The notes below the pieces were generated by a model. It made no database searches and was not told the origin of the DNA. It saw only the letters and a list, made by a program, of their open reading frames with translations. Both the position numbers and the translations under genes were made by a program. 64,000 nt of DNA from Stenotrophomonas sp. ATCM1_4 (GTDB taxonomy: Bacteria; Pseudomonadota; Gammaproteobacteria; Xanthomonadales; Xanthomonadaceae). Where the stretch lies: assembly GCF_004348115.1 (NCBI RefSeq), contig NZ_QPFB01000001.1:3860028-3924027 (forward strand), in the 5' to 3' direction. Of this stretch, positions 58,911 to 64,000 are shown piece after piece. How positions within the stretch are numbered: position 1 is the first letter of the stretch; each line of letters opens with the position of its first letter.

Positions 58911-60560
58911 TTACCTGCGCTCGGCCGCGCTGGCATCGCGCGTGGCGCGGAATGCCTCTTCCGGGCTCCAGTTCGGCCAGTCACGCGAATTGGCCAGCTT
59001 CTCGCCCAGGGTGTAGACCACTTCCAGGTCACGCACCGCGCCGGCGAAGGTCCAGTCGGCCTGCCATTCGTCGCCCTGCTGGTGGTAGCGCTTGGCGGTG
59101 TAGTCGTCGGAGGCCTTCTTGCCGGCTTCCACGCCACCATCGATCCAGTCCTGGCCGGCCGAATACGACAACGCCGGCACGCCACGCTTGGCGAACGGGA
59201 AGTGGTCGGAGCGGAAGAACAGGCCCGCCTCCGGCTTCGGGTCCGGCGTGTAGTGCAGGTCCCATCCCTTGGCCACGTCCTTGAGCTGGTCCAGCAGTTC
59301 CATCTTCGCCGAACCGTAGATGCCGAAGTCACGCGACGGGCTGTACGGCGCCATGCCGTCCATGTTGATCACCGCCACCGTCTTGGACAACGGGTACAGC
59401 GGGTTGCTGGCGTAGTACTCCGAGCCCAGCAGGCCCTTTTCCTCGGCCGTCACCGCCAGGAACACCACCGAGCGCTGCGGCTTGGGCTGCGTGGCGAAGC
59501 CGCGGGCCAGCTCGACCAGCGCGGCGGTGCCGCTGGCGTTGTCCATGGCACCGTTGAAGATGCGGTCACCGCGTGCATCCGGCTCGCCCACGCCGATGTG
59601 GTCCCAGTGCGCGCTGTAGATCACCGTCTCGTCCGGGTGCGTGCTGCCTTCCAGCCGCGCCACCACGTTGTGCGAGGTGATCACCTCGTTGTGGACCTGG
59701 TAGTTGGCCGAGAACGTCTCGCCCTTGATCTCCACCGGCTGGAAGTCGCGCGACTGCGCCTGCTTCTTCAGCGTTTCGAAATCCAGGCCGGCGCGCTTGA
59801 ACATCGCCACCGCCAGGTCACGCTGGATCCAGCCTTCCAACGCCGGATGCGCCTCGGCGGGCTTGTCGCGCACCACGTCGAACATGGTGTTGGTGTTGGA
59901 ACCGGCCACCGTCGCCCAGCCGTAGGACGCCGGTGCGGTTTCGTGGACGATCAGCACGCCGGCCGCGCCCTGGCGCGCGCCTTCCTCGTACTTGTAGGTC
60001 CAGCGGCCGTAGTAGGTCATGCCCTTGCCGTCGAAATCACCCACGCCGGTCTCGAAGTCCGGGTCGTTGATCAGCACCACGGCGATCTTGCCCTTCAGGT
60101 CCACGCCCTTGAAGTCGTCCCAGTTGCGTTCCGGCGCCTTGACGCCGTAGCCCAGGAACACCAGCGGCGCGTCGGTGATGGCCACCTGGCTGTCGCCATT
60201 CATCGCGGCGCGCACGGCGATCTCCTGGCCCTGGGTCAGCGCCTGCGGCGTGCCCTGGCCGGTCAGCGTGAGCTGCGGCTTGCCGACGATGTCGCCCTTG
60301 AGCAGGGGCACGGCCTGGGTCCACAGGCGCTTGCCGTCCTTCAGGTCGCCGCCCGGCTGCAGGCCCGCGTCGGCGAACTGCCGGCTCAGGTAGGCGATGG
60401 TCTTTTCCTCGCCCGCCGAGGCCGGCGAACGGCCTTCGTAGGCGTCGGAGGAAAGCTCCTTCACGTCGGCCGAAATGCGGGCGCCGTCGAACTTCGGCGG
60501 GGCGGCCATCAGGGCCGTGGATACCGACATCGCCAACAGGCTGATTACTACACGCTTCAC
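58911..60560 (-). CDS. M28-family metallopeptidase (aminopeptidase-like)
   Basis: This 549-residue protein has a signal peptide (MKRVVISLLAMSVSTALMAA, cleaved before PPKF), a PA-domain insertion, and the M28 zinc site: His318/Asp320 in SAHWDHIG, Asp340 in GAMDNASG, Glu373/Glu374 in TAEEKGLLGS, then INMDGM and the late SDHFPF. It probably removes N-terminal residues in the periplasm. GGAGGT lies 5 bp before GTG 60560, which decides the start over an ATG at 60584. Confidence 0.93.
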   Translation of the reverse strand: MKRVVISLLAMSVSTALMAAPPKFDGARISADVKELSSDAYEGRSPASAGEEKTIAYLSRQFADAGLQPGGDLKDGKRLWTQAVPLLKGDIVGKPQLTLTGQGTPQALTQGQEIAVRAAMNGDSQVAITDAPLVFLGYGVKAPERNWDDFKGVDLKGKIAVVLINDPDFETGVGDFDGKGMTYYGRWTYKYEEGARQGAAGVLIVHETAPASYGWATVAGSNTNTMFDVVRDKPAEAHPALEGWIQRDLAVAMFKRAGLDFETLKKQAQSRDFQPVEIKGETFSANYQVHNEVITSHNVVARLEGSTHPDETVIYSAHWDHIGVGEPDARGDRIFNGAMDNASGTAALVELARGFATQPKPQRSVVFLAVTAEEKGLLGSEYYASNPLYPLSKTVAVINMDGMAPYSPSRDFGIYGSAKMELLDQLKDVAKGWDLHYTPDPKPEAGLFFRSDHFPFAKRGVPALSYSAGQDWIDGGVEAGKKASDDYTAKRYHQQGDEWQADWTFAGAVRDLEVVYTLGEKLANSRDWPNWSPEEAFRATRDASAAERR

Positions 60561-60629
60561 GCTGCACCTCCAGTGGTCAGACAACCTGTGGAGTGTAGCC
60601 AGCGCCGGGCAGGCTGGGGCAGTGCCCTT

Positions 60630-61871
60630 TTACACGGCCGCCGCCCGGGACAGCAGGACCTCCCGTTCCCGCGCGTTGCCGCTCAATTCGGCGGCCAGTT
60701 CGAACGCGACACGCGCCTCCGCGGCGCGGCCCAGCTTGTCCAGCAGGTCCCCGCGCACGGCCGCCAACGGGGCATAGCCCTTCAGCCGGGCATCGCCGGA
60801 CAGGGCTTCCACCAGCGGCCAGGCGGCCTCCGCTCCGCGAGCCTGTGCAATGGCGACGGCGCGGTTGAGTTCGATCACCGGCGATGGCGTCACCTGGCCA
60901 AGCCTCGTGTACAGCTCGGCAATGCGCTGCCAGTCGGTCTGTTCGGCGCGCCGCGCGCGGGCGTGGCAGGCGGCGATGCCAGCCTGCAGCACGTAGGCAT
61001 CCTCGGCACCGCCGAGCGCCTCGGCCGCGTCCAGCGCCTGCAGGCCGCGCGCGATCTGCAGCCAATCCCAGCGGCTGCGGTCCTGCGCCGGCAACAGCAC
61101 CGGTGCGCCGTCGGCGCCGGTGCGGGCACGCAGGCGCGAGGCCTGCAGCTCCATCAATGCGAGCAAGCCCAGCACCGCCACCGTGGATGGCAGCAGGCCG
61201 TTGAGTATGCGGACGAGCCGCAAGGCCTCCTCGCACAGCGCCGGGCGCATCCAGTCCTCGCCGCTGCTGGCGGCATAGCCCTCGTTGAAGACCAGGTAGA
61301 CCACCTCCAGCACCGACTGCAGGCGGGGCTGCAGGTCCTGGCGACGCGGCACCTCGAACGGCACCTGGCGCTCGGCCAGCAGGCGCTTAGCACGCACGAT
61401 GCGCTGGGCGATGGTGGCCTCCGGCTGCAGGTAGGCGCGCGCGATCTCGGCCGTGCTCAACCCGCACAGCAGGCGCAGGGTCAGCGCGACCCGGGCCTCG
61501 GCCGGCAGTACCGGGTGGCAGGCCACGAACACCAGCCGCAGCAGGTCGTCGCCGAAATCATCCAGGTACTCCCTCGCATCCGCCCCCATGGTCGGCTCCT
61601 GCAGCTCGTCCGTCAGTTCGGCCTGCACGTGCAGGCGCCGTTGTCGCAGGCGGTCGATGGCGCGGCGCTGGGCGGTGGTCATCAACCACGCGGCGGGATT
61701 GTCGGGCACGCCGTGCCGGGGCCAGTGCTCGAGCGCGGCCACCAGCGCGTCCTGGGCCAGCTCCTCGGCGCTGTCCAGGTCGCCCAGCATCCGGGCAAGG
61801 CGCGCGACCAGGCGTGGCGATTCCATCCGCCACACCGTGTCGAGCCTGCGCTGGAGTTCGGCATGTTCCAT
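60630..61871 (-). CDS. ECF42-like RNA polymerase sigma factor with C-terminal extension
   Basis: This 413-residue protein has a sigma-70 region 2 (about 10-85, DSAEELAQDALVAALEHWP and RRAIDRLRQRR) and region 4 (about 125-180, RLLCGLSTAEIARAYLQPEATIAQRIVRAKR). A helical TPR/DUF6596-like extension of over 200 residues follows, rich in alanine-leucine repeats. This layout and the link to DGPF (YCII) genes match the ECF42 group, in which no anti-sigma factor is seen. It is the last gene of a five-gene operon. Region 2.4 and the recognition helix are intact, so it is likely functional. Confidence 0.88.
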   Translation of the reverse strand: MEHAELQRRLDTVWRMESPRLVARLARMLGDLDSAEELAQDALVAALEHWPRHGVPDNPAAWLMTTAQRRAIDRLRQRRLHVQAELTDELQEPTMGADAREYLDDFGDDLLRLVFVACHPVLPAEARVALTLRLLCGLSTAEIARAYLQPEATIAQRIVRAKRLLAERQVPFEVPRRQDLQPRLQSVLEVVYLVFNEGYAASSGEDWMRPALCEEALRLVRILNGLLPSTVAVLGLLALMELQASRLRARTGADGAPVLLPAQDRSRWDWLQIARGLQALDAAEALGGAEDAYVLQAGIAACHARARRAEQTDWQRIAELYTRLGQVTPSPVIELNRAVAIAQARGAEAAWPLVEALSGDARLKGYAPLAAVRGDLLDKLGRAAEARVAFELAAELSGNAREREVLLSRAAAV

Positions 61872-61919
61872 CAGGCCGCGATCAAAGCACCCGCCGCCGC
61901 GGCCGGCAAGCGCCGGGCC

Positions 61920-62276
61920 TCACACATTCACGAACGGCTTGAAGCCACCCCAGAACATGCGCTTGCCATCGAACGGCACGTTCTGCGCGTTCATGCCGGC
62001 CAGGCGCGGATCGGCCATGGCCTTGGCATTGACGCGGTCACGGTGCGCGCGCGAGCGGAACAGCACGTAGGCGAACACCACCACCTCGCCGGGCTTGAGC
62101 TTGACCGCCTGCGGGAACGAGGTGTGCTTGCCCGGCTTGACGTCATCGGCCACCGCTTCGAGGTAGCCCAGCGCGCCGTGCTCCTTCCATACCTTGGCCG
62201 CCTTGCGGGCGATGCGCTGGTACTGGCCCAGCTTGTCCTGCGGCACCGGCAGTACATAACCATCGACGTAACTCAT
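61920..62276 (-). CDS. DUF1428 family protein
   Basis: This 118-residue protein matches DUF1428 (MSYVDGYVLPVPQDKLGQYQRIARKAAKVWKEHGAL, then VVVFAYVLFRSRAHRD), a small ferredoxin-like family akin to EthD/DGPF proteins. The function is unknown. It sits between VOC and sigma-factor genes in the operon and starts 19 bp after the preceding VOC gene. Confidence 0.9.
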   Translation of the reverse strand: MSYVDGYVLPVPQDKLGQYQRIARKAAKVWKEHGALGYLEAVADDVKPGKHTSFPQAVKLKPGEVVVFAYVLFRSRAHRDRVNAKAMADPRLAGMNAQNVPFDGKRMFWGGFKPFVNV

Positions 62277-62295
62277 CGCGATTCCTCCACTGGGC

Positions 62296-62700
62296 TCAGT
62301 TGGGTTCACCGTCCATGAAGGCGATCTCCCACAGGTGGCCGTCCAGGTCCTGGAAGCCACGCTGGTACATGAAGCCGTAGTCGCGCGCCGGCATCGGCTC
62401 GCCGGCGCCGGCCTTCAGCGCCTTGTCCACCAGCGCATCCACGGCCGGGCGGCTGTCCGCCGACAGGCAGGTGATCACCGTCGTCTGCGCACGTGCGTCA
62501 CCGACCGGAAGTGGCGTGAACGTCTTGAAGAATGGCTCCACCAGCAGCATCACGAAGATGCTGTCGCTGACGATCATGCACGCGGCGTTCTCGTCGGTGA
62601 ACTGCGGGTTGAAGTGGTAGCCCAGGGCACCGAAGAAGGCCTTGGAGGCCTCCAGGTCGCGCACCGGCAGGTTGACGAAGATCATCTGTGGCGTGGCCAT
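62296..62700 (-). CDS. VOC-superfamily protein (glyoxalase-like)
   Basis: This 134-residue VOC protein has the pattern MIFVNLPVRDLEASKAFFGALGYHFNPQFTDENAACMIV and the C-terminal FQDLDGHLWEIAFMDG. The metal-binding Glu (WEIAF) is retained, while the first-module ligand is less clear. The likely roles are metal-dependent chemistry on small substrates or resistance. ATG 62700 is 2 bp after the PhnB-like gene. Confidence 0.88.
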   Translation of the reverse strand: MATPQMIFVNLPVRDLEASKAFFGALGYHFNPQFTDENAACMIVSDSIFVMLLVEPFFKTFTPLPVGDARAQTTVITCLSADSRPAVDALVDKALKAGAGEPMPARDYGFMYQRGFQDLDGHLWEIAFMDGEPN

Positions 62701-62702
62701 GC

Positions 62703-63140
62703 TCACTGCCCCCCGTCCATCGGCTTCATGCAGTTGACCATCCACGGCTTGCCGTAGCGGTCGACCAGCATGCCCCAGCGGTGCGCCCAGAAGGTCTCGC
62801 CCAGCGGCATCTGCACCTGACCGCCATCGGCCAGTGCGGCGAACACGCGCTCGGCCTCTTCGATGCTGTCCACGTCGACGTTGATGGTGGTGGCGGCCTG
62901 CCCGTTTGCCGCGGGCCCATCGGCGGCCATCAGCACCGCGCCGCCGGCCTCGACCTGGCAGTGCGCCACCTGGTCGGCATCCGGGGTGAAGCCCCCGCAG
63001 CCCTCCATGTCCGAATCGGGGCCGGGTGGCATGTCGCCGTACTTCATCTCCGACACCACCTTGCCCCCGAGTGCCCTGGCATAGAACGCCATCGCTTCGT
63101 GGGTATTGCCGTTGAAACCGAGGAAGGGAATCAATCTCAT
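62703..63140 (-). CDS. PhnB-like VOC protein
   Basis: This 145-residue protein matches PhnB/DUF1338-type VOC domains (MRLIPFLGFNGNTHEAMAFYARALGG, then the late WGMLVDRYGKPWMVN). These are often metal-free or weakly metal-binding. The role is unknown; the gene lies between the YCII/DGPF gene and the second VOC gene in the sigma operon, with gaps of 24 bp and 2 bp. Confidence 0.88.
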   Translation of the reverse strand: MRLIPFLGFNGNTHEAMAFYARALGGKVVSEMKYGDMPPGPDSDMEGCGGFTPDADQVAHCQVEAGGAVLMAADGPAANGQAATTINVDVDSIEEAERVFAALADGGQVQMPLGETFWAHRWGMLVDRYGKPWMVNCMKPMDGGQ

Positions 63141-63164
63141 GGTCGTGCTCCTGTCGTTGCGGGG

Positions 63165-63593
63165 TCAGTTGTGCTCGATGCGGTCACGCAGACGCTGCTC
63201 CTGCGCGCGCAATTCCGGGGTGAAGGCTTCGCCGAAATCCTCGGCCTCGAACAGCGGCCGGATCTCCACCTCCACCGCGCTGCCATCGGCGCTGCTGAAC
63301 GGGGCACGCTTGAGCCATTCCACGGCTTCGTCCATCGAGCGCACCTGCCACAGCCAGAAGCCGGCGATCAGCTCGCGGGTCTCGGCGAACGGGCCATCGA
63401 TGACGCTGCGGCGCGTGCCTTCGAAGCGCACCCGCGCGCCGCGCGCACTGGGGTGCAGGCCTTCGCCGGCCAGCATGATGCCGGCCTTGACCAGTTCCTC
63501 GTTGTAGGCGCCCATCGCCGTCAGCTCAGCCTCGGTGGGCATCACCCCGGCCTCGGTGTCGGCATTGGCCTTCACGATCACCATCACTTTCAT
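63165..63593 (-). CDS. YCII/DGPF-family protein, first gene of the sigma operon
   Basis: This 142-residue protein has a ferredoxin-like YCII fold with the DGPF motif in IDGPFAETRELIAGFW, the feature that names the family. DGPF proteins co-occur with ECF42 sigma factors, and their biochemical role is unclear. ATG 63593 lies about 37 nt after the -10 of the sigma-type promoter (see the promoter entry). It opens the five-gene operon. Confidence 0.9.
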   Translation of the reverse strand: MKVMVIVKANADTEAGVMPTEAELTAMGAYNEELVKAGIMLAGEGLHPSARGARVRFEGTRRSVIDGPFAETRELIAGFWLWQVRSMDEAVEWLKRAPFSSADGSAVEVEIRPLFEAEDFGEAFTPELRAQEQRLRDRIEHN

Positions 63594-63636
63594 CACCGTC
63601 TCCGTCGCCAGCCCCATGCCGGCTCACATCCACTAC

Positions 63637-63663
63637 GACGAACCCGCGCGACAGGAATCGACA
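63637..63663 (-). promoter_or_regulatory. ECF-type promoter of the sigma/DGPF operon
   Basis: On the minus strand TGTCGA (63663-63658) and CGTC (63640-63637) are separated by 17 bp, before the DGPF gene. As I recall, -35 TGTCGA with a CGTC-like -10 is the target motif described for ECF42 sigma factors. This fits autoregulation by the sigma factor at the operon's end. Confidence 0.7.
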
Positions 63664-63756
63664 TTGCGCGCATGGAAATTCCTGAACGTATTCATGCGGC
63701 ACCGCAACAGCAGCGATGCGCGATGATGGGCGCTCCGGCCCCACCGTCCCCACCCG

Positions 63757-64000
63757 ATGAAATACCTGCTGCTGATCTACATCGACCCCGATCTGGCCCA
63801 GGCGCTGCCGGCCGAGGAATACGACGCCTTGATGCGCGGTTGCCTGCGCCATGCCGACACCCTGCAGGCGCAGGGGACGCTGCTGATGTCCCAGCGCCTG
63901 CAACCGGTCGAACGGGCGCGCACGTTGCGCACGCGCGCCACGCAGGCGCGCGTGACCGATGGACCATTCGCCGAAACCCGCGAACTGCTGGCCGGCTTCA
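63757..64000 (+). CDS. Second YCII/DGPF-family protein, 3' end outside the window
   Basis: An ATG at 63757 opens a frame of 81 codons that runs off the window. The visible protein starts MKYLLLIYIDPDLAQALPAE and contains TDGPFAETRELLAGF, the DGPF motif. It is the divergent neighbour of the sigma operon, with 163 bp between starts. I saw no TGTCGA element on its strand, so its promoter may differ. The remaining gene and any second sigma gene lie beyond the end. Confidence 0.85.
   Translation, partial: MKYLLLIYIDPDLAQALPAEEYDALMRGCLRHADTLQAQGTLLMSQRLQPVERARTLRTRATQARVTDGPFAETRELLAGF

Follow-up and report, generated by a model that had tools for sequence, protein, structure and literature searches.

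The window analysed here, a stretch of 64,000 nucleotides from Stenotrophomonas sp. ATCM1_4 (contig NZ_QPFB01000001.1, positions 3,860,028 to 3,924,027), carries five genes on its minus strand which encode, in this order, a YCII/DGPF-family protein, a PhnB-like VOC protein, a further VOC protein, a DUF1428 protein and an extracytoplasmic function (ECF) sigma factor (Table 1). With the ATG starts as read in the sequence, the gaps between them are 24, 2, 19 and 48 bp, and the element TGTCGA-N17-CGTC lies ahead of the first gene. Strand, order and gaps all agree, in the sequence and in Pfam searches, with the description in an earlier note on this DNA. We consider it probable, at roughly 0.85, that this operon is read by its own sigma factor, a member of the ECF42 group, that the same factor would also serve scattered remote targets, and that its activity, by analogy with published members of the group, may be set by a C-terminal extension resembling tetratricopeptide repeats (TPR).

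Table 1. Genes and promoter of the sigma-factor locus, in window coordinates
Feature	Position	Strand	Evidence
ECF42-type promoter, TGTCGA-N17-CGTC	63637..63663	-	Exact match; -35 box 63663-63658, -10 box 63640-63637
YCII/DGPF-family protein, 142 aa, first operon gene	63165..63593	-	Pfam PF03795, 4.3e-19
PhnB/YjdN-like VOC protein, 145 aa	62703..63140	-	Pfam PF00903 (Glyoxalase) and PF06983 (3-dmu-9_3-mt)
VOC protein (Ble-like), 134 aa	62296..62700	-	Pfam PF22677 (Ble-like_N) and PF00903 (Glyoxalase)
DUF1428 (YbaA-like) protein, 118 aa	61920..62276	-	Pfam PF07237, 2.8e-39
ECF42-type sigma factor, 413 aa, last operon gene	60630..61871	-	Pfam PF04542, PF08281 and PF20239
Divergent YCII (DGPF) gene, running off the window	63757..64000	+	Pfam PF03795, 5.6e-16; 124 aa at L152:8785-9159

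For the first gene, 63593 is the most likely start, in preference to 63617, since it (142 aa, MKVMVIVKA, 43 bp past the motif) is in line with the relatives: all nine same-genus genomes, our own included, have an MKVM start 43-47 bp downstream of the motif. The cargo proteins are ordinary members of the YCII, YjdN/PhnB and YbaA/DUF1428 families, as judged by Pfam and by PDB sequence matches (1s7i for the YCII/DGPF protein, 1u6l for the PhnB/YjdN-like protein, 4gym for the Ble-like VOC protein, and 2okq, YbaA, for the DUF1428 protein), here grouped behind one sigma-factor promoter. The PhnB/YjdN-like protein scores 107.5 bits against NF007537, under the cut-off of 122.

The sigma factor comprises, by Pfam, Sigma70_r2 (PF04542, residues 17-79), Sigma70_r4_2 (PF08281, residues 116-165) and DUF6596 (PF20239), and is 79% identical to a protein of Stenotrophomonas sp. 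Iso1 and 75% to one of S. acidaminiphila; NCBIfam returned general ECF matches only (best 25 of 45 matches). In the AlphaFold2 model (mean predicted local distance difference test, pLDDT, of 87.5, with residues 86-107 below 50), an all-helical extension of about 240 residues, from 177 to 412, consists of DUF6596 followed by TPR-like helices. Foldseek retrieved TPR proteins and ECF sigma factors with this model (best E value 3e-3, none at 1e-3), and no TPR match was obtained in Pfam at 1e-3, so that the TPR nature of the extension is supported by the predicted fold and not by Pfam. As the earlier note had it, no anti-sigma gene is present among the five operon genes in Pfam and NCBIfam searches; genes farther off were not searched for one.

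Several features place this sigma factor, at the level of sequence, in the known group ECF42: (i) its sigma region carries ECF domains only; (ii) the extension is TPR-like; (iii) two YCII/DGPF genes lie near the sigma gene, one from 63593 to 63165 and one divergent from 63757; (iv) the promoter is of the type reported for the group; and (v) the operon lacks an anti-sigma gene. Members described from Streptomyces venezuelae (Sven_0747/7131/4377), Pseudomonas putida (ECF-10) and Sinorhizobium meliloti (RpoE10) likewise have about 200 residues of TPR-type extension after sigma2 and sigma4, no anti-sigma gene nearby, a YCII gene upstream and a TGTCGR-N17-CGTC promoter (PMC8999054, PMC6180224; here and below, papers are cited from excerpts). 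The ECF41 (SigJ-type) factors share a fused C-terminal regulatory extension and the lack of an anti-sigma factor, but theirs is a SnoaL-like domain (PMC9023288), whereas the extension here is all-helical with DUF6596 and TPR-like matches. Pfam found no SnoaL domain in the sigma factor at 1e-3, which sets it apart from ECF41, and the assignment to ECF42 made in the earlier note is borne out.

The sequence TGTCGA with CG(A/T)C is what we take to be the ECF42 promoter of Streptomyces. A loose search for TGTCGA/CGTC was dropped as evidence, its yield being at chance level in window and genome alike: with N15-19, the window holds three matches against 0.92 expected (7 of 100 shuffles reach three); with N14-20, the whole genome holds 113 against 142 for the reversed control; and at exactly N17 the genome holds 11 against 9. 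We accept the operon promoter because it is conserved in relatives. Our family set consisted of 198 genomes, of which 116 have the sigma gene (match at E <= 1e-60) and 82 do not, and 119 fetched sigma loci together with the window gave 120 loci. Exact TGTCGA/CGTC pairs occur in these loci 123 times at a spacing of 17, the other spacings between 8 and 27 having 1-22 each, and 115 of the 123 sit between 30 bp inside and 110 bp before a called gene start. Such near-start sites are present in 93 of the 120 loci, on the operon strand in 91. None of five scrambled motifs gave a near-start site at N17, though at other spacings one had 14 and another 2. Runs of CGTCGTC are the probable source of eighteen near-start pairs found at spacing 20.

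Beyond its two boxes, the element has T after TGTCGA, C at the next-but-one positions, GTT before CGTC and G after it. The eight other same-genus genomes all retain it at the same place, with exact CGTC in three (G029, G195, G145) and CGTT in five (G163, G179, G124, G071, G098); an apparent loss of the motif in these five is thus a change from CGTC to CGTT at an unchanged position, and the loss in close relatives with an intact operon that the earlier note had suggested looking for was not seen. Among loci from many phyla (best 80 among the matches listed), TGTCGA-N17-CG(T/A)C stands ahead of the cargo in 59, and every site listed has a spacing of 17, though 16, 18 and TGTCGG were allowed; loose spacing counts across whole loci are much noisier. 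By our own count, three RpoE10 promoters printed in PMC6180224 read TGTCGG-N17-CGTC. On the exact match and the N17-specific conservation, the ECF42-type promoter proposed ahead of the first gene is real.

A strict pattern of 28 bp, read from the 115 sigma-locus sites, matches 362 times in 110 of the 198 family genomes, with up to nine sites per genome among the relatives; the reversed pattern gives no match and an N18 control 20. Strict sites are found in 103 of 116 sigma-bearing genomes versus 7 of 82 without the sigma gene (Fisher, 3e-32). Because this association is partly circular, sites inside the fetched sigma loci (from about 5.5 kb upstream to 1.5 kb downstream) were removed, one site each in G020 and G104, whose loci were not fetched, being assumed local. 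This leaves 271 remote sites in 86 of 116 sigma-bearing versus 7 of 82 other genomes (Fisher, 1.6e-21), a count that includes sites beside unfetched extra sigma copies and one G012 site at a distance of about 2.7 kb from its sigma gene. We examined 95 strict sites, drawn from 60 regions, which were picked among the listed matches so as to cover many genomes, and from 30 genomes that contributed one site each; 87 are intergenic, with a same-strand start no more than 150 bp behind them (77 of 85 when the ten sigma-locus sites are left out). Under the same gene-calling rule, the 20 N18 control sites all fall within genes, with no start behind any of them. At the genus level, with CGTY allowed, at least one site is present in 59 of 91 genomes, the reversed pattern matching in 2, and 26 of 30 sites in genus loci, many from near relatives, are intergenic with a start behind them.

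The genes behind the remote sites form recurring families. With the target taken as the best-scoring reading frame behind a site, a laxer rule than the 150-bp one, 86 target genes contained YCII (15), GST_N_3 (13), DUF1428 (8), AHSA1 (8), 3-dmu-9_3-mt (7), Glyoxalase (6), MatE (5), MFS_1 (5), GFA (3), DUF4287 (2) and HlyD_3 (2), where one gene can count in two families. Among 61 control genes, taken from around the N18 sites and the chance N17 sites of our own genome, no family of this list has as many as two members (best 25 of 68 families by count). Targets in the genus loci, assigned by eye, are the operon, the DUF4287-like gene, stand-alone DUF1428 genes and one GST-like gene. Our own genome has two strict matches, the operon and a site (G000:C1:3649585-3649612) 68-69 bp before a 71-aa DUF4287-like gene. 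Of 30 fetched DUF4287-like loci, 16 have TGTCGA-N17-CGTC on the same strand, 28-134 bp ahead of the start of the match; the three (L199, L207, L214) from genomes without a sigma orthologue are not among them.

The scheme that we favour has the following steps: (i) holoenzyme with this sigma factor would start at TGTCGA-N17-CGTC and transcribe the genes for the YCII protein, the two VOC proteins, the DUF1428 protein and the sigma factor; (ii) with the sigma gene in its own operon, positive feedback would arise, autoregulation being a likely prediction; (iii) the same holoenzyme would read scattered promoters, in our own genome that of at least one remote DUF4287-like gene and in relatives those at up to eight further sites; (iv) the remote targets would mostly be of detoxification type, namely, small ligand-binding barrels, glutathione transferases and efflux pumps; and (v) the TPR-like extension would set the activity, probably by keeping sigma4 in a working shape which a partner alters. 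As judged from the genomic distribution of sites, the system is therefore probably not a self-contained switch but a stress regulator of wider reach.

Step (v) draws on published ECF42 work. PMC6180224, PMC8999054 and PMC9023288 agree that control of ECF42 factors is thought to lie in the extension, and this much of the earlier claim that the extension replaces an anti-sigma factor stands. PMC8999054 and PMC9023288 also have the extension required for activity, so it is likely a control element, though not simply a built-in inhibitor.

Some observations weigh against this scheme. Eight of the 95 examined sites lie inside a gene or have no start behind them. A total of 12 strict sites occur in seven genomes that lack the sigma gene; no sigma orthologue was found in these seven at 1e-6, only two weak general ECF matches in G166, and six of the sites are in G116, a draft of 180 contigs, for which an assembly gap or a recent loss are candidate readings. 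Conversely, 13 sigma-bearing genomes have no strict site, four of which (G018, G022, G033, G067) hold only a diverged paralogue, 45-50% identical. The motif is missing before the match in 14 of 30 DUF4287-like loci, and the DUF4287-like protein of our own genome has no Pfam match at 1e-3, its name being given by resemblance. The sigma operon of G048 (L118, an orthologue) is of the CGAC type, and the same genome has four CGTC-type strict sites, a combination not accounted for by the simple scheme. The gene upstream of RpoE10 was not raised when the factor was overexpressed in Sinorhizobium (PMC6180224).

A bolder reading goes further: in the family to which this Stenotrophomonas belongs, ECF42 would be the master switch of a defence regulon, dispersed over the genome and directed against foreign or reactive compounds, and the small ligand-binding YCII, VOC and DUF1428 proteins, beyond acting as enzymes, would be putative partners that load or unload the extension and thereby report the compound to the sigma factor. 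Its defence-regulon half rests on the remote sites, and taken as a whole we hold it to be doubtful. Loss of the P. putida factor increased antibiotic resistance two- to four-fold and biofilm (PMC4613276), so that the physiological sign of such a regulon is not obvious.

The earlier note had proposed a self-contained, autoregulated five-gene switch, with its own operon as sole target and the extension as a built-in anti-sigma factor. An operon headed by the motif, ending in the sigma gene and devoid of an anti-sigma gene would fit this proposal, as would the fact that none of the 115 conserved N17 sites has the sigma gene as the first gene behind it, and PMC9023288 relays a suggestion that a ligand or partner bound to the TPR part may suppress ECF42 activity. 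Against self-containment speak the second full-consensus site before a remote gene in our own genome and the 271 remote sites in relatives, and a built-in anti-sigma factor sits poorly with the need of ECF42 factors for their extension (PMC8999054, PMC9023288); we regard the proposal as improbable. More improbable still is that the 28-bp element is the binding site of an unrelated stress-gene regulator, with the sigma operon just one target. The element does hold more information than two bare boxes, but its fixed 17-bp spacing, its second box CGTC or CGAC and its usual position 30-85 bp before starts fit a -35/-10 pair, its presence tracks the sigma gene across the 198 genomes, and it matches the ECF42 promoters printed for Sinorhizobium (PMC6180224). 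Least credible is transcription from an ordinary housekeeping promoter with the motif as a vestige, since, despite the failure of the Sinorhizobium factor to activate its own upstream gene (PMC6180224), a scan of 60300-64000 (a weak test) found no sigma-70-type promoter match and the element keeps its single spacing in widely different bacteria, which would not be expected of a vestige.

Returning to the sigma factor itself, its relatives have promoters of CGTC or CGAC type. Residue 49 of the sigma factor (window 61725-61727) lies in sigma2, in a stretch ahead of a conserved Trp; it is Gln in 36 of 42 CGAC-type factors and Arg, Lys or His in 102 of 121 CGTC-type factors, while nine CGTC-type factors have Gln. 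Comparison of this residue with the third -10 base gave three supported independent pairs, with the trait going the same way in 2.5 of the three on average. We did not adopt residue 49 as a proven code for the third -10 base; with few independent switches, the nine CGTC-type factors with Gln and the case of G048, it serves as a lead only. The paralogues with labelled promoters (L141-L145 and L150) are of the CGAC type. In L141-L145 (G099, G129, G125, G072, G181), an orthologue and a diverged CGAC-type paralogue (about 47-50% identity) occur in one genome, possibly as two insulated ECF42 circuits in one cell.

As for the flanks, the divergent YCII gene at 63757, which has its upstream region in common with the operon, was missed in the earlier note. 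Of 102 loci, 34 have a neighbour of this kind; an ECF42 promoter of its own was rejected, the motif being found on that strand in 0 of the 34. In a same-genus genome, the divergent YCII gene and the operon stand farther apart, and nested palindromic repeats (L065:3148-3653) lie in the space between them. Beyond the window, the divergent gene is followed by an open reading frame of 1008 aa (L152:9526-12552) that by eye resembles a TonB-dependent outer-membrane receptor. On the other side, a peptidase-like gene with weak aminopeptidase matches starts on the same strand 69 bp after the sigma gene; a scan found no terminator between the two, so read-through from the sigma gene is possible. In only 16 of 102 loci is the sigma gene followed within 100 bp by a gene on its own strand.

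To conclude, both the group to which the operon belongs and its type of promoter were known before, and the dispersed detoxification-type regulon, as deduced from its promoter sites, would be the useful new part. The operon differs from described ECF42 systems in its four cargo genes, DUF1428 among them, and in the many remote promoters within one bacterial family; the Sinorhizobium study reported six genes raised by overexpressed RpoE10, two glyoxylase-like targets among them (PMC6180224), and the passages on ECF42 in the reviews name no large regulon. VOC-type targets, which the earlier note had thought little described, are not unusual for ECF42; DUF1428 was not found as ECF cargo in a literature search in which DUF1428 papers were judged by title, nor was a dispersed ECF42 regulon of GST, MATE, AHSA1 and GFA genes, the main ECF42 papers lying outside the reach of that search. 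Since ECF42 factors are widespread, a 28-bp signature that picks out coherent remote targets with little background provides a gene list to test, and members of both CGTC and CGAC types are available for work on promoter recognition. Our results suggest that scattered regulons can be run by sigma factors that lack an anti-sigma partner, and the remote targets point to the handling of small reactive or foreign compounds.

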